Below, one piece after another: positions 8,039 to 60,500 of a DNA stretch of 64,000 nucleotides. The notes beneath the pieces were generated by a model. That model searched no databases. It was not told the DNA's origin and saw only the letters and a program-made list of their open reading frames with translations. The position numbers were made by a program, and so were the translations under genes. The DNA is from Pristionchus mayeri. Lineage: Eukaryota; Nematoda; Chromadorea; Rhabditida; Neodiplogasteridae. Numbering within the stretch: position 1 is the stretch's first letter; each line of letters begins with the position of its first letter. The stretch spans positions 32,120,901 through 32,184,900 of the forward strand of contig BTRK01000006.1 of assembly GCA_036245805.1 (NCBI GenBank), read 5' to 3'.

Positions 8039-9103
8039 ATGTCTTCTCCTACCGTACTCTCCGGTTCCTCGATGGCTCGTATAGCCTTTCTCATCGCTCT
8101 GCTTGTGCACTGCAACAGTGGATACTGTAAGTCTATTTCATTGATTGGAAATGCGGTAACCTCAAATCAGACGTGTCATTCCTTTTCCTAATTCTTGCAC
8201 CAGAGATCGCCTGCTGAGTTAGAGCGGGTGCATTTAGAACTACCGTAATCCGCAGATATCCTCATCAGCCCTATTTGCAGTGTTATTCTTCAAGAGATCT
8301 CAGCCCGTCTACTCTTTCGATGCAACTTCCGATGATGATGTAGTGGGAAGATTAGTCGCCGAGGTAATTACTTCCTTATTAACTTCCACTACCTATCGAC
8401 TAAAACATTTTGAGCATCCTAAAACGTTATTAAATAGAACATTGCAAATGTCTCTCAAAATGAGTACACAGAAATTGCAGAAACTGAAGCGATCGGCAGC
8501 TCATCACGTCTCCACGGGACTCGGAGATTCACAGGAAGTGTGCAATACCATCGTCACGGAGCATCACCAGCCAAAGTTCGGACACGGTCAGCTTCCTTCC
8601 CTTCTTTCCTTCTTAGTTCGCATATTCTCATCCCATCAGACATTCGTATAGTCGTCGTTTCAATCCAGTTAGCTCAACCTTTAATGGCAGCTGAATCTCA
8701 GTAGGGAATATGATTTTGGTGAAGAATGATTTCTTTTCTGAACTTCCTATCAAAGGACCATTCTTCTATTCAGCCATGGACGGAATTCGAGTGGAAATCC
8801 AGCAGGACGACGAGGCTCAATTCGTGGCCACTTATCGTGTCTGTGGAAGTCAGGGAGGAGAACGTGCACCCTGCACAGGAATAGACACCAAACAGTGAGT
8901 ACTGTAGTCTCACTTCGTTTACCCATCGCCAACTGACTTCATCACTGTATTGCAGTTTCACGTCGGCGTGCGTGCAAGAATGGGAGAATCGAAAGGCGTC
9001 GATCCGACCCGTTGGCAGTTCTGATCCCTTCTCCCTCGGGGAACTCCGCGTCCCTGTTGCCTGCAGCTGCCGCGTCCGCCAGATCCTCCCCGCACGTCGT
9101 TGA
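8039..9103 (+). CDS. Neurotrophin-like (NGF-family) secreted cystine-knot ligand
   Basis: Five exons (8039-8126, 8281-8363, 8481-8586, 8774-8894, 8956-9103) join in perfect phase to 181 residues. A second in-frame ATG at 8072 starts a cleaner signal peptide (MARIAFLIALLVHCNSG). A short acidic pro-region ends in KLKR, a furin-type site. The following region has exactly six cysteines: EVCNTI, YRVCGS, APCTGIDTKHFTSAC, VACSC. Cys2-Cys3 is 10 residues and Cys3-Cys4 is 12, identical to vertebrate NGF, and the CxGIDxKHxxSxC and AC-x-C signatures match. Cys1-Cys2 is 38 and Cys4-Cys5 is 31, against about 43 and 28 in NGF. Known family members are secreted dimers that bind Trk or p75-type receptors. 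A Spaetzle-like cystine knot is the main alternative, but the GID-K-H block favours neurotrophin. The neighbours give no clue to function. Family membership is inferred from pattern; receptor and role are unknown. Confidence 0.8.
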
Positions 9104-10614: not shown

Positions 10615-13600
10615 CTATTGGAGATCGGACTCTTCCAGAGACTCACCACTCGTTGAGTCTAACTCGTAGTTACGAAGGGATTCCGTCTGAAATTAAATGC
10701 TTTGAAATAATATATATCGATTCTATTTAGAATATATTTCCAGCTCACGTTTCTCAGTGCGGCGTGAATGTTCCAGATGGCGAGTGGTCGCATGTAACCA
10801 ATCGCCCTCAAGAAACACATGTAACACATAGTTATAATAAATTGAAAACCTGTAGAACATCCACTCGAACATTGCCTCGGGGGTCTGATATTGAAGACCT
10901 GTGAGGGATGTCGTTATTCTTTCAGTCGGTTTATGTGTATTTCTTAAATATAACATGATTGAATATCTGACCAGCTCTTATCCAACAGGAATCGTAGACT
11001 CCTTCTGCCACAGCGAAACACCGATCACGATCGCCCTATCAACGCAATTGTTTTATGCGCGTTTCTTTACACCGTCTGCCAGCCCGTCCGGTGAATCTAG
11101 TGTGGTGTTACGCGATGTGTAAACCGGTATGTTGAAATGGCACTGACCATGAGAGCGTAGAAGCTGGCGAGGGAGTACGTCGTTCCCGTCCACATCTCCT
11201 CACTCTGAATGGCCACTGTGTCCTTCGTCCCGTCTTCTCTGCAAGAATCAATCAGTTATCCCCTCACACACATAACATATTATCTCGATGTGTATCACAG
11301 AAGGAAACGTGGGTGGAATGAACACTAAGATGCTAATCATATTCAAGGATCTCATTACTAAACAGGCATCTATACCCTACAAAAATAAGCGAACGGCTAC
11401 CGATTAGCATGCATCAAACTTATTCATTAATATAAAATATTTTTTTAGGCGATTCTTGGATGAGCAAGCGTACTTCACATATTCTTACTGTCAAAAAAGT
11501 TAAAAGTGACCTCCATCCATTCGCAGCCCCGCTTTTTCCATTCCCGAATTTCTTCACGTTATTCTCGAAAATTGTATCGAGTACAGAGGAAACCTGAATG
11601 AAAATTTGTAGAAATTTCTATATTTTTAAATTGCATAAATATAAGATATTGTACGTGATACTCAAATATGAAGACTGCGACGGTATCAAAACATGCTTTC
11701 CGACATAACATCTCTAGTGCAAGTGCATCATAAAATCGTACCTTCTCCTTCTCGATGAGCAAGTTGTTCGTCGTTCCATCAACTGAAGCGAGGAACCACA
11801 CTCCGCACAGTTGATCAGCCATTATGGAGGAGGAGGTCTCGTCGAAGTTGAAGTACCTTCAGGAATTATTCACACCAAGAATAAGATTATATTTTTTTTA
11901 AATGTTTTAGCTGAGAACTGTAATGTATACAATTATCAGCTAAAACATTATGTATAATTCCGGAGATCTAATAGTCTAATTATATTCCCATTTCTGTAAT
12001 ATAATAAATTGCATGTTCGTTTCCAGAGATCTCAAAGTGTGTGGCGTACACAATAATTTCGTGGATGTTAGTCAATGATCAACGTGCTGGCAAACGAATG
12101 ATGGATGTGCGAATTGTAGTGGTTCCTAGCAATGTAGTGATCGGAAAACAGCGCCTACGCAAAGGAATGACCAGTTTACAATTAGAATCTGGTATTACAG
12201 CACAATAACAAGCTTTTGTGCGAAGCGTCACTATGAGAGAAGAGAAAATAGAATGTTTGCACAATCGTTAACACGTTAAAAATCAGGTGAAACTGAGATA
12301 GTGAATAGAGATGTTTGATTATTGATTGCCTGCAACAATAGAACATTTTCCACTCATTCCGGGTTGATCTCACCTTCCATTCCATAATTTCTTGATGAAG
12401 ATTCCTCTTGCTTTCTGCACCTGATCAGCCAAAGAAGCTTCTTCTTTCTTTCTTCAATATTCATTTTTGTTTTTTTAATTTGAAAATCATGAGCTAATTG
12501 CTTTTCTTTTTTAGTTTTACTGCTCTCCTGAGCATCTACACTGCACTTAGTTGTCGATTGATTCTTCTACTCAATCGATGGATCACCTCACCTTCTCAAT
12601 ATCTCAGCCATTCTTCTCGCTGCTTCGAGTGCTGCCACCCAGAGGGAACCACAGTAGGCACTGGAAGGGAGAGCAAATATTGCAAAGAAGTGTGGGCAAA
12701 ACAACAACAAAAACAACAATGGGACTCAGACTGGCATATCGTCATGAACTATTCCATCTCTTTTTGCCTACATTCGACGATGCGAAAGCATTATTGCCTC
12801 TCTTTGACGCCATATTGCTCATAGTCTAATCTTTCTTTGATATCACCTTTCATTCATTCATTCATTCATTCATTCGTAACGTGATCAAAGATCAAGCCGA
12901 GTGGCAATAATAGACGGGGGATAAAAAGTGGGGGGTTGTGAACGGATGTAACTAGAAAATACACTATGCGAAGAACTAACATATTCTATGGGAAGAGCAT
13001 TCCAAATGGACATGGTTCTAGATACAAGAGTGGAACTAGAATTATTTGGTATGAAAGGTAAAGATATACGAAGTGGGTGTGCATTTCTGAGGGGGCGAGT
13101 GAGTGGCGCGCGTGTAAGTAGAGAAGAAATATCAAGAGAATAACGGCTGTGGATAATCGAATGGAGGAATAATATATCAATTATGAACCTACGGCGTTCT
13201 AAAGTCATTAGATTAAGCTCATGGAGCCGATGCTTATATGATATAGGAGGGAGGGAACAGCGTACATACATTCTGCGGGTATAGTCACGCTGAACTCTTT
13301 CAAGCTCTTTAGTCAATGCTACACTATGTATAGGATTCCAGATAATGGAGCAATATTCGAGATTTGGGAGGATGAAAGTATTATACGATTTGAGATATAA
13401 CTCAATAGAATTGCTACGAAAGGATTTAAAAATTAGATTAGATTTGGTACGGGCTTTAGAAATAATTTTACTAATATGGGATGAGAAAGAAAGAGAAGGG
13501 GAGAAATGCACTCCTAGATCTTTAATGATACATTTACTTGGGTCATTGCTAGGCTCGTTTAAGATAACACCGTTAATGGTGAATAGTTTACGGGGATTAT

Positions 13601-16600
13601 GTCGGCCATAGTGAACAATGTGACATTTAGTTTCAGAAACGCCAAGATTCCACTGCGAGGACCAGTTAGAAACAATATCTAGAGCGGATTGCAAGTCATC
13701 TGAGAACAGAGGGGCTTCAGCGAACAACTTGACTTCGTCTGCATACACAGAATAATAAATGGAGGCCGGGAATTTTACACAGATATCATTGATAAATAAG
13801 ATGAAGAGGAGAGGCCCGAGACAAGATCCCTGTGGCACGCCAGATATGACCGGGGATGGTGGGGAAAATGAAGTGTCAATAAATACGGATTGCGTACGAC
13901 CAGAGAGATATGAATGGAACCATGATACAATGTGATTAGAGATGCCTAACTCGGACAATTTATGTAACAATAATCTATGATCAATAGAATCAAAAGCTTT
14001 TCTGAAATCTATGTAAATTGTGTCAAAAGGAGAGCCATGCTTAGAGATGCGGAGATAATGTGCATAAGTCTCAGCAAGATTAGTGGAAGTTGATCTACAA
14101 TTTCTGAAACCAGATTGGTGAGGGTCAAATAAGTTGTTCTGGTCAAGAAACGCCGTAATTTTACCTATGATAATCTTCTCAAAAATTTTACACACAGATG
14201 AAGTAAGTGAAATAGGACGAAAATCTGTTATAGAGTTACTAGATTTTTTTGGAATAGGTTTAACTAAAGCTTGACGCCATTGAAATGGCACTTGGGAGGT
14301 AAGCAGAGACTTGTTAAAAATAGTAAGGAGAGGAGATACAACAGATAATCTACACCTCGAAAGAACTATACTGGGAATAGTGTCGGGAGTAACATTCACT
14401 TTGGGGGCAAGCTTACTAAGTGCACAGATAACATCCACGTAAGAAATTGAAGGGAGATCGAAAATGAAAGAAGGGGAAGGGAGAGGGAGTGGGGACGATT
14501 GGGGAGGGCTAAAGACAGAAGAAAAGAATTTTTCAAAAGCTACACACTTCTGGTCATTAGATGTCAGTACGGAACCATCAGAATCAACGATTCCAGAAGG
14601 AGTGGTCTTGGGAGTACTCAATTTCTCCTTGCAATAATTATAGAAAAGCTTAGGATTGGAGGACATAACAATACGATTTTCAAGGGAGCAATGAAATCTA
14701 TTTAGGGCAGAATTAAAACGCTGGGTCATAATAGCACATGCACGACTGTTTGGAGCAACTCTAGTTAATGTCTTACATTTCCCGTAAATAATTTTTAAAG
14801 TTCGTGGATATCTAGAGAAAGGGGAAGGTTTAGAGAGAGGAACAAATGTGTCTAAAACGTTATTTAGAAAGGCAACAAAATATGTATAAGATTGGTGGGT
14901 ATCACGATTGCTCAAAGCGTGGGTCCAGTCATGAAAGTGTATACAGTCATTAATCGAGATCCAATCAGCTAATCTATAGTTACGGGATGGAGCACAAACA
15001 TTCTGAGGAGGACGGGGAATGCGAAGGTCAAATGTCACACTGAGATGGTCACTAAGTGCAGTGGCAGGAGACACATTACATATAATATTCTCATTACAAA
15101 ATAATAGATCTAAATAGCTATTGAGCCTACTAGGGAAAGAGACAAACTGATTAAAGTGATGGTCTGACACGAAATCTAGTAGGTCATTTTGGTTTGGAGA
15201 AGAAAGAGAGGGCCAATCAACATTAGGAAAATTGAAATCACCAATTAAAATATAAGGAAAATCAACCGAAATATGAGTTTCTAAATTCAAAAGAAGTTGA
15301 ATAAGAGAGTCATTAGGGGCGGAAGGAGATCTATAAATAGTAAAAATCTAATTTTCGTATAAGGGAGAGACGGGGAGTAATCTAAATGAATATCAACTAC
15401 ACACGACTCGACAAGTGGTGAAGAAAAGGTAGAAATAAGTATGGGATTCAAAGAATTATGAACTAGACACGCGACGCCACCACCCCTACCGTAATCAGCA
15501 GAAGTAACGCGATCGCATCGAAAAGGCAAAAAATCAGGAAAACCGCCAACAAGGAGAGAGTCGCTATCACTATTATCTAACCAAGTCTCAGATATGCAAA
15601 TGATGCGGTACTCATGAGAAGCGATCAAGAATGAAAGCTGAGGGGATTTACATCGAATGGAACGAGCATTAGCATAGAATACGGAGACAGGAGAGTTTCT
15701 AGAGTGACGTGTACTTAATATCGATCGATTGTGTGTTGACCTAACGAGGGAATGACTAGAGAGTGAGGGGAGGGGAGACAAGAGTGGAAGTATGGTACCC
15801 TTGCTGCCACTGTCCTATCCTCTCCTCGTTGTCACGTGGTCAGTGCGGGAAGGCGCGATTGCAGCCGGATCGGGAGTCGAGGGAATGGAGGCAGCAGAGG
15901 GAGCAGAAGAGGGAGTTCCGGAGTGTCCTGGATGAGGGAGATCGGCAGAAGAGGTCTTAGTAGTGCGAGAGAGTCCGTAACGGGGAGGGAGCGGGCGAGG
16001 GGTACGGTAATTGATCAGAGTGAAGTCGCGCACTCCGCACACAATCATGCGAGCTTCAAGATTGCGTCGCATGGCCTCGCGCTTCCTTCTCCAAGGACAG
16101 CTGAGTGGGAGTCAGGTCCTTCCTGATGAAGGCAAGAGAGTCCTTGAAGGGAGAGGGACGGCCTGGCTTTCCACGAATTCCAGAGAGGAGGGCATCACGA
16201 GTAGTCTTGTCCGGGCAGCTTATCTTGAGAGGGCGAGTACCGGGAGGACGATGAGGAGGATGGCGGTGATGAGAAATCTTCTTCTCATCCCACGCCTTCT
16301 TCACCGCATCACTGCCCGAGTACTGGACGAGGTCAGCGATGAGCTTCTCGTCGGCAGCTGCTCCCTCCTTCAGGTTCTCCTTGTGTCCAATGACGACTGC
16401 CCTTGTTTCTTTATCCTCGTACTCCGCCCTGTCAGAGATTACACGAGAGCACGACTCGTACACAACGCGTGCCACGTCGAGAGTGGGGGCGAGTGAGGTG
16501 GGGGCAGGGGGAGGATTGGCGAGAGAGAGGGTCTGGAGAAGGGCGCGTACATCAGAGAGCATGGCCATGACAGCGTCTACTTTGCAAGAAAGCGCGTCCA

Positions 16601-23637: not shown

Positions 23638-23645
23638 ATCGGGAG

Positions 23646-23653
23646 TATAAAAG
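23646..23653 (+). promoter_or_regulatory. TATA box of collagen A
   Basis: TATAAAAG lies 61 bases before the start codon, within GGGAGTATAAAAGGGAGG. The same element sits at the same distance in collagen B, and a similar one precedes collagen C. Confidence 0.75.
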
Positions 23654-23706
23654 GGAGGGTGGAGATAGGAGGAGCAAGCAATTGCAGCTTCAATCAACAG
23701 ACAAGA

Positions 23707-25301
23707 ATGAGTAACGTGAGTCCCTTCAATTTTCTAATCTGGTAATCAGGATACTCAAATGAAGAGATCTCTAAGGAAGAAGATCTCGTCTATTTCTTCT
23801 CTCCTTCAGGCTCTGGTGTACGTGGCTACTGCCGGCTTAGGCATCGCAATCTTCGCTGTGATGGCTTCTCTCGCCATTCTCACCAATGACATCACTTCCT
23901 TCCATGAGGAGGCGATGATGGATCTCAAGGAGTTCAAGGTGAGAGAGATGGAGGAGAAGCAGTTGACAAGAATGATCAGAAGACGGATTAGAAAAAAAAG
24001 AATAATGCTGTTGAGATGGTGGCGAACGATGCTTGGATGAACATCCTCTCAGCAGCCCCTGCTTCATCCTCTTCCTCTACTCCGTTCAACGTCAGAAAGG
24101 TATCGTATATTCCTCCTCTTTCATTCTTATATCATTCTCGATTCGATCCTAACGAGGTTTGATGAATGACAACAATGCAATTCGAATGTATTCTGCTGCA
24201 GGGCCGTCAGGCTAACGGGAAGACTTGCAACTGTGGCGAGCAGCCTAATAACTGCCCTGCTGGTAAGTACCAGTCCCTTTCTGGACCATAATGAATCATG
24301 GAATAGGAAGAGAATGAAGAGTGCATTGCAGGCCCGCCCGGTCCTCCCGGAGCCCCTGGAGAGGCTGGATTTGATGGAGCCCCTGGAAAGGACGGCAACA
24401 ATGGCAACGTTGGTCTGCCCACTGAGAAGGACCCGTACGCACAGCCTGCACCTTGCACCAAGTGCCCTGCCGGACCCAGAGGACCCGCGGGACCCGATGG
24501 AGAGACTGGAAGACCCGGACCCGAAGGCGCTCCCGGAGCACCCGGTGCACCTGGAAAGGACGGAGAGAATGGAGAGACTGGACCTGCTGGAGATGCTGGA
24601 TCCAATGGAAGAAATGGACACGATGGAAGACCCGGAGGACCCGGAAGAAATGGAAAGAGAGGATCTGGTGCTCCCGGTGCACCCGGACCCGACGGACGTG
24701 TTGGACGCGCTGGAAAGCCCGGAGCACGCGGAGAGCGTGGACCTGCTGGAGCTCCTGGACCTCAGGGAGCGGCTGGAGCACCCGGGAGAGACGGATTCCC
24801 CGGAGAGAATGGAACTGACGGAGTGGAGGGAGAAGCCGGTCTGCCTGGATCAGATGCTGCCTATTGCCCTTGCCCTCCTCGTTCGTTCGAGGTACTGTAG
24901 ACAAGAGTACTGTAGCAGCTACATAAGCTACACCATGAATTCCTCAAATGATCATAGTAGATTAGTACTTTGGCTGAATAGACTGAATGGGTTCAATTTG
25001 ACACTATTTCGAATAAAGATACTGTGATCACAAGAATATGTTTGAGGTGAAGCACGAGCCCGAGACCGCAGGCTACGACACTCCTGTGGCTGCCACTACC
25101 GCATCCGCTCCCTCTCCCGCGCGTGCCGCGTATGACGCTCCGGTGGCGGCTCCTGCTCCCTCGTACGAGGCAGTGACTGCTGCTCCTCCAGCCCCCGCCC
25201 CTGCTGGATACGATGCCCCCGCAGAAGTAACCACTGAGAAGACTCTCCCTACTCCTCCCAGAGCATCCAACCCCTACAGACTTAGGAAGCTTAGAGCTTA
25301 A
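23707..25301 (+). CDS. Cuticle collagen A
   Basis: Structural protein of the exoskeleton, secreted by hypodermis. Exons 23707-23715, 23810-23938, 24016-24099, 24202-24262, 24332-24891 and 25047-25301 join in phase to 365 residues. The N-terminus MSN is followed by a hydrophobic signal-anchor ([19 protein letters not shown]) and the collagen N-domain [13 protein letters not shown] cysteine block ([10 protein letters not shown]) precedes the Gly-X-Y region, which is interrupted around CTKC and closed by CPCPPRSF. The C-terminal exon encodes an Ala/Pro-rich tail with repeated [12 protein letters not shown] units ending in YRLRKLRA. No RxxR-type subtilisin site was positively located. Exon 1 carries only three codons. 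Its partner copy is mirrored at 34299-32705 and a diverged paralogue lies at 47203-45794. Confidence 0.93.
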
Positions 25302-25440
25302 GGAAGGCCATTGGCTGATTACTAAAAAAGAAGTGATACCACAATGAAATAAATTATTCAATAAATATCCCGTCCATTTCATTTCACAAACAAATTCAAC
25401 CGAAGATCACAGAATCACTTGGAAAATGCAATATTATCTT

Positions 25441-26067
25441 GTATATATATTTTATCTACGCACAAGGCGCAACGAGATACGAATATTATATTATGTGTGT
25501 CGTACAGAATAATTTGACTCCTCACATCGAGGATTCAAAGTGATAGAATAGGGAGAGAGAAGGGAGTACAAAAAGAAGCGAGAGAGAAAATAAGCGAAGA
25601 TCGAGTCAACTGGTCTCATCTGTCTTCGTCTGGTAAGTATTTGAGGAGGGAACCGAGGAGGAGGCACTCGGGTAGACCAGGTAGACTCTGCTCCGAGAAC
25701 TAGCATCCGTAGATCTCTAACGGGGAAGAAGTGGGGAGGGAGTAGACATGTATGCTTGGGGGGGGGGGGTGGAAAGAGAATATGGGGGTGGGGAGAGGGG
25801 AGAGAAGAAGGCGAAAGTGAATAACTAACGATAAGTTGCAAACTTAGATAAGTCTAATTTGAGTAATCTATTCTTAAAGACAGAAATATTTGAAGAACTA
25901 TGAACATCTGAAGAAAGTTCACTAAGTATCCTAGCTACTCTTCTAGAAAAACAATGAAAACGAGGTGTGGATTTAGTTGCCTCAATATGAATTCCAAATG
26001 TGTTCGATCTATCTCTAAGGGGTTTAAAAGTAAAGAATCTATTGCGATCTAGAACTGTGTCGCCATT
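25441..26067 (-). mobile_element. 5'-truncated CR1-like LINE 3' fragment inserted in arm A
   Basis: Present in arm A and absent from arm B, where the flanks TTATCTT and GCTCATTT are directly joined. The minus strand carries an open frame from 26073 to 25825 with the usual LINE C-terminal pattern (DRNRFFTFKPLRDRSNTFG, RRVARILSEL, ISVFKNRLLKLDL, stop), followed by a 3' untranslated part ending near an AT-repeat at 25441. It contains a 10-base G run near 25758. It differs in sequence from the LINE in GBA2. Confidence 0.75.
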
Positions 26068-32414: not shown

Positions 32415-32704
32415 ACGTTATTTCTTCAAATTTGTCCGATCTTCATTGGGACCGTTTCAAATAACATTTCGTCTATTTCCATACATGGCATCCGGTATCA
32501 AAACTCTACCGGTTAAAAAAATGATTAAACCAAATATTGAACGACAAATAAAATAAGAAATGAGCAAGATAATATTGCATTCTCCAAGTGATTCTGTGAT
32601 CTTCGGTTGAATTTGTTTGTGAAATGAAATGGACGGGATATTTATTGAATAATTTATTTCATTGTGGTATCACTTCTTTTTTAGTAATCAGCCAATGGCC
32701 TTCC

Positions 32705-34299
32705 TTAAGCTCTAAGCTTCCTAAGTCTGTAGGGGTTGGATGCTCTGGGAGGAGTAGGGAGAGTCTTCTCAGTGGTTGCTTCTGCGGGGGCATCGTATCC
32801 AGCAGGGGCGGGGGCGGGAGGAGCAGCAGTCACTGCCTCGTACGAGGGAGCAGGAGCCGCCACCGGAGCGTCATACGCGGCAGGCGCGGGAGAGGGAGCG
32901 GATGCGGTAGTGGCAGCCACAGGAGTGTCGTAGCCTGCGGTCTCGGGCTCGTGCTTCACCTCAAACATATTCTTGTGATCACAGTATCTTCATTCGAAAT
33001 AGTGTCAAATTGAACCCATTCAGTCTATTCAGCCAAAGTACTAATCTACTATGATCATTTGAGGAATTCATGGTGTAGCTTATGTAGCTGCTACAGTACT
33101 CTTGTCTACAGTACCTCGAACGAACGAGGAGGGCAAGGGCAATAGGCAGCATCTGATCCAGGCAGACCGGCTTCTCCCTCCACTCCATCAGTTCCATTCT
33201 CTCCGGGGAATCCGTCTCTCCCGGGTGCTCCAGCCGCTCCCTGAGGTCCAGGAGCTCCAGCAGGTCCACGCTCTCCGCGTGCTCCGGGCTTTCCAGCGCG
33301 TCCAACACGTCCGTCGGGTCCGGGTGCACCGGGAGCACCAGATCCTCTCTTTCCATTTCTTCCGGGTCCTCCGGGTCTTCCATCGCGTCCATTTCTTCCA
33401 TTGGATCCAGCATCTCCAGCAGGTCCAGTCTCTCCATTCTCTCCGTCCTTTCCAGGTGCACCGGGTGCTCCGGGAGCGCCTTCGGGTCCGGGTCTTCCAG
33501 TCTCTCCATCGGGTCCCGCGGGTCCTCTGGGTCCGGCAGGGCACTTGGTGCAAGGTGCAGGCTGTGCGTACGGGTCCTTCTCAGTGGGCAGACCAACGTT
33601 GCCATTGTTGCCGTCCTTTCCAGGGGCTCCATCAAATCCAGCCTCTCCAGGGGCTCCGGGAGAACCGGGCGGGCCTGCAATGCACTCTTCATTCTCTTCC
33701 TATTCCATGATTCATTATGGTCCAGAAAGGGACTGGTACTTACCAGCAGGGCAGTTATTAGGCTGCTCGCCACAGTTGCAAGTCTTCCCGTTAGCCTGAC
33801 GGACCTGCAGCAGAATACATTCGAATTGCATTGTTGTCATTCATCAAACCTCGTTAGGATCGAATCGAGAATGATATAAGAATGAAAGAGGAGGAATATA
33901 CGGTACCTTTCTGACGTTGAACGGAGTAGAGGAAGAGGATGAAGCAGGGGCTGCTGAGAGGATGTTCACCCAAGCATCGTTCGCCACCATCTCAACAGCA
34001 TTATTCTTTTTTTTCTAATCCGTCTTCTGATCATTCTTGTCAACTGCTTCTCCTCCATCTCTCTCACCTTGAACTCCTTGAGATCCATCATCGCCTCCTC
34101 ATGGAAGGAAGTGATGTCATTGGTGAGAATGGCGAGAGAAGCCATCACAGAGAAGATTGCGATGCCTGAGCCGGCAGTAGCCACGTACACCAGAGCCTGA
34201 AGGAGAGAAGAAATAGACGAGATCTTCTTCCTTAGAGATCTCTTCATTTGAGTATCCTGATTACCAGATTAGAAAATTGAAGGGACTCACGTTACTCAT
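32705..34299 (-). CDS. Cuticle collagen B
   Basis: Inverted copy of collagen A with an identical gene length (1595 bases) and identical exon layout: 34299-34291, 34196-34068, 33990-33907, 33804-33744, 33674-33115 and 32959-32705, giving 365 residues. It has the same signal-anchor, [12 protein letters not shown] domain, Gly-X-Y region, CPCPPRS block and Ala/Pro tail. Visible replacements against copy A include Leu to Ser and Ala to Ser in the signal-anchor, Pro to Ser in the first triplets ([10 protein letters not shown]), Arg to Pro in the tail (SPAPAAY) and Val to Ala near the end. No disabling change was seen, so both copies should be functional. Confidence 0.93.
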
Positions 34300-34352
34300 T
34301 CTTGTCTGTTGAGTGAAGCTGCAACTGCTTGCTCCTCCTCTCTCCACCCTCC

Positions 34353-34360
34353 CTTTTATA
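34353..34360 (-). promoter_or_regulatory. TATA box of collagen B
   Basis: TATAAAAG at exactly the mirrored position of the collagen A box, 61 bases before the start codon. Homology between the two promoters stops only 8 bases further upstream, so the shared promoter is very short. Confidence 0.75.
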
Positions 34361-34368
34361 CTCCCGAT

Positions 34369-43396: not shown

Positions 43397-45676
43397 ATGT
43401 CCGACCTCAAGACTACTCTTCAAGTGAGTTCCCCGAAATATTAGCCATAGCTAAAAATCATCTTCATCTTTCAGATGATGCTAATGGGTGGAATGATCAC
43501 TCCGACCATCGCACTCGGAAAGAAACTCGGATTGTTTGAAGCACTAGCAGAGGCGAGTTGAATCAATTTGTTCTGGAACTGAATCCGCTCTACTGTTCCA
43601 TTAAAATGGTCCCTGTTGATTTATGAGAAGATCATTGTTCGATCCTTGGGCTACAGTCGTTCATTGCAGGTCGCATCTGAATCCTCTCCAGCAGATGCGA
43701 AGACAATTGCTGAGAAGGCTGGATGCAAAGAGAGGTTTTCACCATGCTGTTGCATAATGAGAATGATGAGATTGCGCGAGAAAAGAAAACCTTCTCCATC
43801 TCCAGATACGTCCGTGAGTGGTTGGCAGTTCTCTCTTGCGCGGGTTTCATCGAAGTGACGCCCGATGAGAAGTTCTGGCTCACGCACGAAGCAAAACATG
43901 TACGTGATTCATTCGAATTGAGCAGGAGAATTAAATATTCATAATAATTGTTTTGTTTGCACAATATTGTCTTCTTTTCATGACTTTCAGCAAAGAAGGA
44001 AGAACAACATGGAGACCGTGCAATTTTCTGAACTTTTTCGTTAACAGGAATTCTCTGGGATGAACAACTTCGTCGTCGCTCAGATGTCCTTCCTTCCCTC
44101 TGTAGTCAAGACATTCACCGAATTGACAGAGGCATTCAAGAAGGAAGGACCTTATGGTACATATCCTGGCTCACTCTTCCCTATCAAGGCACACAAAACA
44201 TAGAGATCATTCTTCTGAAGTATGGACGGAACTCATCTTCAAATTGAGGTCTGGAGTACTCGCAGTTCTCTGATTTCTACTCTTCGATGGACATTATGAC
44301 TAGGGTGATGCACGATGCTCATCTCATCTCTAAATACTTCCCTCTGGCAAGAAATTATTGTGATACTTGAATGAAACTGATTCAATCGCGAATTATAAGC
44401 AGATATTATGCTGCTTGTTTGCTGCATAGCTTGACACCATTTATCCCAAATTGCTAATAATGCAGATCGGCATGAGTGAGAGACTGGAGGCGGGGAATCT
44501 CAGAGTTCTGGACGTCGGTTGCGGATCTGGATACCACGCACTCAAGATGGGTGAGCATTAGTGGTTGGTCCAAATTGTTGACTGAGATCTACATGTTTGG
44601 TTTTATTCTTTCAACGACCTTCTCATGAGCGAACATGACTGACTGATCTTTGATCTTTTTTCTTCAGCTGCGACGTATCCCAAATGCGAAATGCACGGAG
44701 CTGACATTTCCGAGCCTGCCATTGAAATGGCTAACAAGAGTCTCAAAGAGGAAGGGCTGAAGAATCTGGTGAACCCCGTTAAGACATTTGATAGTTCGCT
44801 TGGCTTCCTTTCTTTATGATTGCAATTAGTTGTTGATGAGATGAGCAACGAAAAAAGAAGTCACAACATAACATGGGCATCCCGCCGGAAGTTGCCACTC
44901 TTCTCTCTCAGACTTTCCACGTGGAGGATGCAGGGAAGATGCCCGATGCATGGACGAATTCATTCGATTTCATCACCATCTTCGACGCTTGCCACGACCA
45001 GATGAGACCCGATCTCGTGAGGATTACCTATCTTTTACCTTTAACCACACGAAAGATAGCTCATGATGTCGTTGATCTCAATACGTTAATATTTCAGTGT
45101 CTCAAAGAGATCTACCGCATGCTCAAGCCAGGAGGAATCTTCGCTATGCTCGAGGTATCTAAACACGAATATTTGAATGTTCTGCGGCTCTTGTTAAATA
45201 TGTTGTCTATGGCAGGTCCGAGGTACGTCTAACATCCACTCTGACAAGGAGAAGCAAGGCCCGCTCGCAGCTGTATTCTACGCATCTTCCATGTTCCATT
45301 GTCTGCCCGTAGGAAGCAATAGAGAAGGTATACACCTTAACAAACTCATTATATCTCTCAAAGGAGTCAAAGGAGAAGTTACATTGAGGAATGTACTGTC
45401 TTTCCGATCAAATTTGACATTGTAGACGCTCTGTGCATGGGTGCGATGTGGGGAGAAAAACGAGCTCGGAAACTCATCCAAGACGCTGGCTTTAAATGTG
45501 AAAATGTAAAGGTGAGAGAATTTAGTCCAACATATTCCATTTTTAAATACGCCACTAATTATTCTCCCAATCAGATAAAAATAAGTGTGTCCTCTCAGGT
45601 AGTCGAGCCCAAATTCTTCCCCATCAACATCGTGTACCTCTGCACGAAGGAGGAGATACCCCATTACAACCTTTGA
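43397..45676 (+). CDS. SAM-dependent methyltransferase with winged-helix N-domain
   Basis: Starts MSDLKTTLQ directly after TTTCAG, then MMLMGGMITPTIALGKKLGL, DAKTIAEKAGCKERYVREWL (dimerisation/winged-helix-like part), FTELTEAFKKEGPYGLEYSQ, and the SAM-binding motif I VLDVGCGSGYHALKM near 44500. Motif II/III regions follow: CEMHGADISEPAIEMANKSL, FDFITIFDACHDQMRPD, IYRMLKPGGIFAMLEV. It ends RKLIQDAGFKCENVKVVEPK to CTKEEIPHYNL at 45676. About ten exons are separated by short introns. It resembles a methyltransferase family that is multi-copy in Caenorhabditis. The substrate is unknown. The exon between about 44760 and 44890 was not pinned exactly. Confidence 0.85.
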
Positions 45677-45793: not shown

Positions 45794-47203
45794 TTAGACG
45801 CGGGCCTTTCTTCTGCGAGAGTATCCAGAGACAACGGGAGCGGGCTCCTCGTATCCCTGGTTCTTAGGCTCGCTCTTGACCTGCAATATTGATTATAGTA
45901 ACCCGAGGTTCAATTAATTAATGCTGCGAATTACAGTAATCCGTATACAGTACCTCGAAGGAACGAGCGGGGCATGGGCAGTAAGCGGCATCAGATCCGG
46001 GAAGTCCGGCATCTCCCTCAGTTCCGTCAACTCCGGGTTCTCCGGCATCTCCGTCTCTTCCGGGAGCTCCTGCGGGTCCCTGGGGTCCAGGTGCACCGTT
46101 GTCTCCCTTGGATCCACGGGGTCCGGCCTTTCCGGGGCGTCCAGCACGGCCTTCCTACAATTGGAGGTTACAGTATCAAATGAGGATTGTGTGAGAGGTA
46201 CTAATCCATAAACCGTTGCCTACCTTTCCGGGAGCTCCAGGAGCTCCGTGTCCTCTCTTTCCATTTCTTCCGGGTGCTCCGGGTCTTCCATCGTGCCCGT
46301 CCTTGGCATCAGGTCCAGGCTCTCCAGCGAGTCCGGGTGCTCCATCCTCTCCGTCCTTTCCGGGTGCTCCGGGTGCTCCAGCTCCTCCATCGAGACCAGG
46401 CTGTCCAGCCTCTCCATCGGGTCCAGCGGGTCCTCTGGGTCCAGCAGGGCACTTGATGCAAGGCTCGGGCTGGGCGTACGGGTCCTTCTCAGAGGGAAGA
46501 CCAGTGAGACCGGGGTTTCCGTCCTTTCCAGCCTCTCCGTCGAATCCAGCATCTCCAGGTGCTCCAGGAGGGCCGGGAGGACCTGCAATGATTATTAAAT
46601 CACATACTTCTTCCTACGAGGGTAAGGGGGGGGGAGGGGGGAGGGGGGGGTGATCATCTTACCAGCGGGGCAGTTGTTGGGCTGCTCTCCGCAGTTGCAG
46701 CTCTTGCCGTTAGCCTGACGGACCTGCAATAAAGGAATGAACCTGTGAACATCAAACCTGAGACATTTCAATGCCGAAGCCCACAGAATCACACGGATAC
46801 CGTACCTTTCTGACGTTGAAGGGCATGCTGGAAGATGCACCGACAGAGGGAGTGGCCAGAATGATGTTGGTCCACGCGTCATTGGCGACCATCTGAAGAA
46901 GAACTTATTTTATTTCCCCAAAAATTGATAATACTATGCAGTTTGCGCTAAACCGGATAGTCAATGGCTCATTGATGCATCTGCTAGAAGAAGATGGCTG
47001 ACCTTGAACTCCTTGAGGTCCATCATTGCCTCTTCATGGAAGGAAGTGATGTCATTTGCAAGGATGGCAAGAGAAGCCATCACTGCGAAGATTGCGATGC
47101 CTGAGCCGGCAGTGGCCACGTACACCAGAGCCTGAAGGGAAGAAGGTGCTAGAGACAGGAAGGAAGGGTGGATAAAGGGAGGAATTCCACTCACGTTAGT
47201 CAT
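45794..47203 (-). CDS. Cuticle collagen C
   Basis: Exons 47203-47195, 47131-47003, 46892-46806, 46723-46663, 46582-46224, 46154-45954 and 45880-45794 join in phase to 310 residues. The N-terminus MTN plus [19 protein letters not shown] and [12 protein letters not shown] are nearly identical to collagens A and B, as is [13 protein letters not shown]. The Gly-X-Y region has the same EKDPYAQP interruption but an extra intron, and ends CPCPARSF. The tail is much shorter (VKSEPKNQGYEEP to RRRKARV). It is a paralogue of the inverted pair, older than their duplication. The adjacent intron near 46620-46650 contains G runs. Confidence 0.92.
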
Positions 47204-57500: not shown

Positions 57501-60500
57501 GGAGGCTCATTCGATAGAGAATGAAAAGAGCTTCAAAATTCAATTTTGAACTAGTGATTTGGTTGCGAACTCATAATGTGTCTCTTCGATTTCGAAACGC
57601 GCATGGCTCGTGACACTCCCCGCGTCCTCTCCTCCCTCTCCCTCCACTCCTCTCGCCTTTCTCTCACCCGGCGTTACTAGAGAGCACCCTAATTATGAGA
57701 AAGCCCCTCTTCCTTCCTCCGCAGAGTTCGGCGAAGCCCTGCCCGATCGTTTCGAGAATTGAAAAGACAATGGAGAATTAGGCTCCGCCCCTCTTTCTCT
57801 CGTCTCGCTTTTTGAGCCGTCAATTCACCCACATTTTGCGCCATATCTTGGCTCAAACATTAGATATCAACCTAATTCAAAATGCATGATCCTATTTAGC
57901 CCCATGGGAACACATTAAACACACAATTAGGCCTGTGTGATAATTTCGGCCACCCACCTTGTGGTCCCTACTCATAACTCACGTTGATCGTCGAACTCGA
58001 AAGTGACGATGAGAGTGGCGTTCGCTTTGTAGAAATCCGAAATGAAGGGCTCACTCTGAAAAGAAATAAAATTGAAAGAATTGGATTGGATTGTTTTTGA
58101 TGTGTTATTCACAAGCTTCCACTTACATGTTAATCATATGCTTCCAAGTGTTATAATCCACACGAGGATCACCCCGCTGACTAATCAATGAATTTGTTTG
58201 AGAAGTTCGAGTTATATTTAAATTCTCACAGAGTATTTAATGGAGATGAGTTTGAGTGAGGGATCCACCGAAGGTTTCGGAGATTCGACGATTACCTCAG
58301 TAGAAAAGTTGGAGATGCCCTTCAATTTGGGAATTATCTCAAAATGTTTTGAATCTCCGAGTACTCGTTCCGTTCAGTTCCTCAATTAGCACATATATCA
58401 CAATAATGTTGATTACTTCAACAGCTCACCGTCTGTGAGAATGCCGCCACTCTCACTGCGAATGGATCACAGAAGTTGCCCCCTGGCAGTTGGACATTGT
58501 ACAGAGAGGACTGCTCTGATAACTGAAATGAAACAACTTATTGGTTGATCATAGAGCTGCAACCTCTCCCTTTGTGCTCGAATATTCCTCAGTTACCACT
58601 TTTCACTAATTTTCATCTTCATCAGGTATCGTAGGAATACTACATCCTTCAAACAAATTTGACACATGTTAATGTTTATTCGATCCGACTGATCTGATTG
58701 ATAGTATCATTTTCCTTCGCCCTAGTGCACACTCGAATAACATTCTACTTCCCAGATCCCCCCTCTCACAATCAATCATCCTCTCATCCTTAGAGGGCGT
58801 GAGTACTAGAGAGAGTCATCCTACTATCTGACTACTCGGATGTTTATCACTCGGGTCAATTCCGCGAGTTGTTGGGTCAAATAAGGGTGAGCCATTATTC
58901 GATACCAGGTCACTCATTGTATTTTCCGAATCTCCGATACTGGTACAAGTCAACTCTGACTAAAAGTGAATGATCGGTTGAAAAATAGCCTAGCTCTTCT
59001 AACTAGAATTGTTTTCAAATCGGAGAATGATAATATGTGATACCATACAGATAAATGGGCTTATAATTTATTGGGGTGTCCGGAAAGTTCGTATATTTTT
59101 TTGTTTTTATTTTTTATTAAATTCTTTACAATTCTCAGTGACCAATGTATGCCCCCTTCTTTCTCACTACCTCCCTCCAGCGATTGGGCAGGGTCTCGAT
59201 TCCTCTCTTCCAGAATGCGGGTTTCTTCGAGACCGCCCAGTTCACGAAAGCCCTCACAATTTCATCTCGATTCTTAAACTTCTTTCCTTTGCAGAAGTCA
59301 GAGAGAGAGCGGAAGCAGTGGTAGTCGCATGGGGAGAGATCCGGGGAATACGGTGGATGGGGAATCCTCTCGATCTTCAGCTCGTCCATTTTCTTCTGGG
59401 TCATCTTCGCTCGATGTGGGCGAGCATTGTCCATCAGAAGAAGAATTTTGCCCTGGTTCAGGAGTCTGGGAGGGACTCTGATCGCGACATCTTCCAGTTG
59501 TTCAGAGAAGAGGTCGGCATTGATGCTGGTGCCAGGGGCGAGGATCTCCCAGTAGATGGGACCGAGCACTGAGAAGAAGAAGCAGAGGAGTTCCTTCTTT
59601 CCGTGCTCTTCCTTCTTCGGGACGGGCGTGGGCTTCTAATCTGCATCCACCCATTGCAGTCTCCTCACAGGGTTATCGTACGTGATCCACTTCTCATCTG
59701 TAGCGATGATGGAATTGACCCATCGAAGATTGGATCTACGATGGAGTAATTCCCGACAGACTTGAACACGATTTTTCAGCTGTTCGGGGGAGAGGTCATG
59801 GGGAATCACTTGTGGGAGTTTCGGCTTCTTCCCAGATCGATGGAGGATATCGGACACCGTTGATCTGGGAGTACCAGTATCCTTCTTCAACTCACGCACA
59901 CTGGCCATGGGCTTGCGCTTCAGTGTGCGGAGAACGAGAGGCTGATCGAGGGAGGGAGGGCGTCCAGAGCGGGGTTGATCATCGATTCCAAACTCCCCTT
60001 TCTTGAAGCGGGAGAACCACTTATAGCAGAAGGGTATGGAGGGGGCGTCAGCTCCTTCCGACTGGGCCAGGGCAGAGTGGGCCTCCTTCACGGATCGGCC
60101 AAGACGGTAGTAATGAAGTAAAACTGCTCGGAGGTAGAGATGGGAGTCCATCACAAGAATCAATGTAGCAACTAGGAGACTGATTAAATCCTCTCACTAC
60201 TCAACGTCAGAATGATGCAATACATTGTTGACAAACAGATTGCGCAATCACTGCATTTGATCGCGAACTGACTTTTCTCCGAAGCATTATACGAACTTTC
60301 CGGACACCCCAATAGATGATTCATGACCAACTGAAAAGGGTTATTCATACGAACCATTGATTTCTCCTCGTCGAATTGTCCTCCTGCCGGTCTGTACTGC
60401 ACTGCGTAGATCGAAGCTCCCGTGACATCTTGCCACTCCACCGTCCGAGTCCCTAATAATTAATAATTAGGGCGTAATTAATTATATTTCCTTTGAGTCT

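Follow-up and report, generated by a model that had tools for sequence, protein, structure and literature searches.

A Pristionchus mayeri gene encoding a predicted neurotrophin-like cystine-knot protein belongs to a nematode family already present in databases

According to Wilson 2009 (PMC2772990), a layout of signal peptide, pro-region, basic site and knot like that of proNGF is also found in several Spaetzle proteins. The same paper lists Pro13 (Spaetzle), position 133 (aromatic in Spaetzle, Ile or Val in neurotrophins) and Trp130 (neurotrophins) as sites that separate the two families, gives one Gln (Gln44) as common to both, and notes that Pro136 is retained in some protostome neurotrophins. 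For nematodes, a 2026 preview (PMC13174251) describes C. elegans as lacking apparent sequence homologues of vertebrate neurotrophins, and reports that C. elegans TRK-1 strongly binds putative cystine-knot neurotrophin candidates. Here we describe a gene of the nematode Pristionchus mayeri (Neodiplogasteridae), located on the + strand at 8039-9103 of a 64,000-nt window (the whole stretch of DNA analysed), which a first-pass annotation had taken for a neurotrophin-like ligand gene.

We think it probable that this five-exon gene is a member of a nematode six-cysteine family with an NGF-like predicted fold, that its product is likely a dimeric ligand that is secreted and binds a Trk-type receptor (TRK-1), and that within the neurotrophin/Spaetzle superfamily it represents a nematode branch by descent, without being proven orthologous to the vertebrate neurotrophins. 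The locus is a real gene. Its five exons form one open frame with all junctions in phase, and the acceptor of exon 3 decides the length of the product: the 181 residues given by the first-pass annotation are obtained with the acceptor at 8481, and 184 with that at 8472. The features of the gene are as follows.

8039..8126 (+), exon 1, predicted signal peptide; in-phase open reading frame (ORF) with donor gtaagt, and ATG at 8039 or in frame at 8072
8281..8363 (+), exon 2, pro-region; present in NCBI protein P0001
8472..8586 or 8481..8586 (+), exon 3, end of the pro-region, KLKR and Cys1; 8481 fits the NCBI protein
8481..8492 (+), KLKR dibasic site, putative proprotein cleavage site, from the sequence and the basic pair in relatives
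8774..8894 (+), exon 4, Cys2, Cys3 and start of the CxGIDxKH block; in P0001
8956..9103 (+), exon 5, rest of the CxGIDxKH block, Cys4, Cys5, Cys6 and stop; in P0001
8541..9070 (+), cystine-knot domain from Cys1 to Cys6, split by introns 3 and 4; neurotrophin fold in the structure model

The NCBI partial protein PMAYCL1PPCAC_30061 (P0001) has 151 of its 152 residues inside the 181-residue model, the agreement covering exons 2-5. Exon 1 lies outside that partial model, and was predicted from its ORF and splice donor, from the hydrophobic segment that it encodes (hydropathy peak 2.75) and from its resemblance to relatives' signal peptides. The junction of exons 1 and 2, ...SGY|LLFF, is similar to ...KTY|VVVV and ...RAYYVL in relatives. 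The proposed gene model is the same as the public one in exons 2-5 and extends it by a likely exon 1. The form with the 8472 acceptor is closer in look to the P. fissidentatus protein P0002 (VAEVRIQKMKR).

The relatives of the P. mayeri protein were collected by protein searches. A single-sequence search (E <= 1) returned three proteins: the gene itself, one from P. fissidentatus (4.1e-57) and one from Mesorhabditis belari (6.7e-25). A profile of the query and those three proteins gave 22 matches at E <= 10, and a 16-row profile gave 56 at the same threshold; 41 of the latter carry an organism name, in every case that of a nematode, and 15 carry none. Caenorhabditis, Ancylostoma, Haemonchus, Steinernema, Aphelenchoides, Globodera and Heterodera are among the genera represented, though nematode groups missing from this list cannot be called absent, as the search requires that proteins have 5-residue words in common and fall within a length window. 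No protostome neurotrophins were among the matches of the single-sequence and profile searches; Daphnia and other protostome neurotrophins resemble the family, by the description in Wilson 2009 (PMC2772990), in having a neurotrophin-like knot after a pro-region. Several of the family matches are named NGF domain-containing, nerve growth factor-related or Spaetzle domain-containing in the databases. The first-pass annotation had suggested a search of other nematode genomes, and the relatives found include C. elegans; its view of nematode neurotrophins as unrecognised has been overtaken, since databases label C. elegans and other members as NGF domain proteins and the preview reports cystine-knot candidates bound by TRK-1. 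The gene is therefore a further member of a family already in databases, not a first discovery.

Thirty-one of the 57 proteins fetched were aligned (alignment A6), and counts out of 31 below refer to this alignment. P0017-P0022, P0024, P0029, P0034, P0036, P0037, P0039, P0042-P0048 and P0051-P0057 were left out as fragments, long or fused models, one near-duplicate and most of the nameless rows. The P. mayeri protein belongs to this nematode NGF-domain family by its profile match and by the motifs around VEIQQD and P[IV]xCxC, and the family-invariant residues include the second Gln of the QQ pair. Like the C. elegans protein P0007 (178 residues, NGF domain-containing) and its relatives, it has six cysteines, a GHxxNGSRVEIQQD-like stretch, CxG[IV]D...SxC, P-[IV]-x-C-x-C, a signal-peptide-like start and a basic site. 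It differs from P0007 in that the two are 33% identical over the alignment, and in that P0007 has RKRK ahead of the knot and a Cys2-Cys3 spacing of 8. When P0007 was used as a query in the P. mayeri genome, the best match was this gene (E = 7.7e-4), followed by a paralogue on another contig (0.09; C5:13693550-13694484, which is L003:1501-2435). In a 31-row within-family tree the paralogue is a Pristionchus duplicate whose branch is long (0.65), that of this gene being 0.039; at the locus of the paralogue tblastn found the three knot exons, and exons 1-2 were not detected.

The P. mayeri protein contains six knot cysteines with spacings of 38, 10, 12, 31 and 2, and CTGIDTKHFTSAC, the ACSC ending and KLKR are all present. 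The CxGIDxKHxxSxC block and AC-x-C ending of the first-pass annotation are thus confirmed, and so are its exact matches to mouse NGF (43, 10, 12, 28, 2) at Cys2-Cys3 and Cys3-Cys4; the spacings that it did not quote differ (38 against 43, 31 against 28). Fly Spaetzle has 37, 7, 14, 31 and 2, where 31 is counted to the second Cys of its CC pair. By sequence, the inner spacings of the P. mayeri protein are neurotrophin-like and the outer ones (38, 31) Spaetzle-like. The Cys2-Cys3 value of 10 occurs in P. mayeri alone (1 of 31), the others having 7-9 and P0009 lacking the cysteine; because relatives have 7-9, identity with NGF at this spacing is no evidence of orthology, and we rejected it as such. 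Cys3-Cys4 is 12 in 26 of the 30 proteins that have both cysteines and 11 in the other four. The six-cysteine knot with its C-x-C ending is kept across the family except in P0009 (Cys3 missing) and the truncated P0038, and C-x-G-[IV]-D is found in 25 of 31. A 15-base pattern guessed for the GID block, used to locate the window, had no match in the P. mayeri genome. A basic residue pair lies 8-30 residues upstream of Cys1 in 29 of the 31 rows, and is KK in eight of these. The furin consensus is R-X-K/R-R. KLKR, which had been called a furin-type site, is dibasic and precedes the knot but does not fit this consensus.

Predicted monomer models of the P. mayeri and C. elegans members adopt a neurotrophin fold, and match it better than Spaetzle. 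In the model of P0001 the predicted local distance difference test score (pLDDT) was 81-97 per ten-residue block over residues 51-150, and structural alignments with vertebrate neurotrophins gave 17-21% identity. The predicted fold is clearly nearer to neurotrophins than to Spaetzle. When the family profile was compared with the PDB, NT-3 (0.0013) and NGF came out on top and fly Spaetzle reached 0.54; hhalign with the family profile gave 5.6e-6 for NGF against 0.0022 for Spaetzle. The best single Pfam E-value over the 31 members was 1.9e-7 for NGF, against 1.6e-6 for Spaetzle, and the NGF family (PF00243) is precomputed on the relatives P0030, P0033 and P0038. Position 133 is Ile in 22, Val in seven and Leu in two of the 31 proteins (Leu in P. 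mayeri) and aromatic in none, and in the alignment the nematode family has no counterpart of the CC pair that fly and Aedes Spaetzle carry close to their end. A neurotrophin-like secreted ligand, as modelled from the predicted fold and the family-level profile matches, is well supported. The likeness to the vertebrate neurotrophins NGF, BDNF, NT-3 and NT-4 comprises the predicted fold, the two inner spacings of mouse NGF and the CxGIDxKHxxSxC block.

Several observations, on the side of the ligand and of the receptor, weigh against this reading. For the 184-residue form, Pfam ranks Spaetzle (PF16077, 25.3 bits) over NGF (PF00243, 18.4 bits), though neither score reaches the cut-off of 27; P0001 scored 25.9 bits against PF16077, and a later version of PF16077 is precomputed as a match on it. 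Over the 31 members at E <= 0.1, Spaetzle was matched in 26 and NGF in 21, and over 16 members at E <= 1 the counts were 13/16 and 9/16. The C. elegans protein P0007 matched neither family at E <= 0.1. A single-sequence search of the PDB up to E = 10 gave a venom NGF at 0.67 as its sole match. The outer spacings, Cys1-Cys2 and Cys4-Cys5, resemble those of Spaetzle. Pro13, the Spaetzle state, is present in all 31 proteins, where hhalign aligns it to the fly Spaetzle Pro and MAFFT places the two one column apart; Pro136 is also present in 31/31. Trp130 is found in none, there being no Trp at Cys5-9, its position in mouse NGF. Nor does any of the 31 have Gln at Cys2-7, which is Gln in mouse NGF and in both Spaetzle sequences and which we map to Gln44; the residue there is Phe in 25 and Leu in six, and Gln stands one place further, at Cys2-8, in eight. 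The residue numbers of Wilson 2009 were transferred by alignment, not taken from the paper's figure.

By alignment, most of these diagnostic residues show the Spaetzle state or that of neither family, and membership of the neurotrophin family proper is unproven. The strict neurotrophin label fails on the Pfam cut-off and on three sites, Pro13, Trp130 and the Gln; what stands of the first-pass claim is the neurotrophin-like ligand of the predicted fold and family profiles. That annotation had proposed profile searches against NGF and Spaetzle, and regarded a better profile or structural match to Spaetzle as telling against it: the Pfam match was better for Spaetzle, and the structural match was not. 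The profile methods themselves conflict, Pfam pointing toward Spaetzle, and the family profile against the PDB and hhalign toward NT-3 and NGF. A search of the P. mayeri genome with PF16077 gave no matches, this gene included, but the controls likewise gave none. An unrooted tree of one nematode, one neurotrophin and one Spaetzle group has a single topology and cannot decide between the two families.

On the receptor side, that the TRK-1 ligands of the preview belong to this nematode family is an assumption. When the P. mayeri genome was searched with a TrkB kinase domain and 134 of the 173 candidates were scored, ten kinase places emerged. Two of them, L010 and L015, sit in one gene, and none of the ten was assigned as a Trk orthologue. 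Several of them we take, read by eye, to be ALK-, DDR-, insulin-receptor-, Eph-, Src- or ACK-like and not Trk. The sole kinase place compared with the PDB, L010, matched ROR1, MuSK and an entry named EGFR above TrkC. That EGFR-named entry, 9p9u chain A (678 residues), scored 159.9 bits, far ahead of every other chain (116.2 for ROR1). A search of the genome with LRRCT_2 (PF16920) gave nothing above cut-off, as did its controls.

A Trk-type receptor is nevertheless our best guess, because of the neurotrophin fold together with the TRK-1 binding reported in the preview. The precursor would lose its signal peptide and be cleaved at the dibasic site ahead of the knot, the mature knot protein would form a homodimer, and the dimer would bind TRK-1. 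With a member in C. elegans, this conserved nematode family of predicted neurotrophin fold would open the ligand side to genetics.

The same mixture of characters can be read in other ways. The gene might encode a nematode Spaetzle: its cystine-knot product would act on the Toll receptor TOL-1 and resemble neurotrophins through shared ancestry only. The Pfam ranking, for the P. mayeri protein and in more members of the family, agrees with this, as do Pro13 and Pro136 in every protein aligned, the missing Trp130 and the outer spacings (38 and 31), close to the 37 and 31 of Spaetzle. We regard it as unlikely, however, as the predicted fold is clearly closer to neurotrophins, position 133 is Ile, Val or Leu throughout, the terminal CC pair is absent, and both family-profile comparisons side with NT-3 and NGF. 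The P. mayeri protein also stays below the PF16077 cut-off. A nematode-only ligand, which left the superfamily stem before neurotrophins and Spaetzle acquired the forms they have today, or changed so much as to be neither, and whose receptor may differ, would account for the mosaic of residue states, for the lack of the Gln that both families share and for invariant residues of the family's own, the second Gln of the QQ pair among them. Fast divergence would explain the mosaic equally well, while the fold and the GID block point to neurotrophins and the preview reports TRK-1 interaction for C. elegans cystine-knot proteins (PMC13174251), so that this origin too seems doubtful.

A related, rather speculative proposal is that nematodes keep a third branch of the superfamily, which combines the neurotrophin fold and GID loop with Spaetzle-type prolines and outer spacings, split off before both classic families had settled, and now serves as a TRK-1 ligand. 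If true, it would represent a surviving intermediate in the split between Toll and Trk ligands; the mosaic residues in any case bear on the separation of neurotrophins and Spaetzle. That the exons reflect chance or belong to a pseudogene in decay is highly improbable: the annotation is only a partial hypothetical protein, but the frame is open across all five exons, the single-sequence search found close relatives in P. fissidentatus and M. belari, and the branch of the gene is short beside that of its paralogue. We retain the reading of a nematode family member that is probably a Trk-type ligand.

The window contains other features. A methyltransferase-like exon lies at 44840-45232 (+; Methyltransf_31, with a weaker ubiE/COQ5 match), and the open stretch after it, 45341-45676, matched no Pfam family. 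In a non-LTR retrotransposon at 12885-15814 (-), a single open stretch carries both the reverse transcriptase and the endonuclease domain, and the next, overlapping one gives a weak endonuclease match. Two adjoining open stretches at 59135-60193 (-) gave Mariner/Mos1-like transposase matches. The segments 23638-25441 and 32565-34368 form an inverted pair with 1,804-base arms that are 99% complementary, each containing a collagen stretch, and four shorter inverted pairs lie between these arms. A third collagen stretch is found outside the pair, at 46176-46613 (-).
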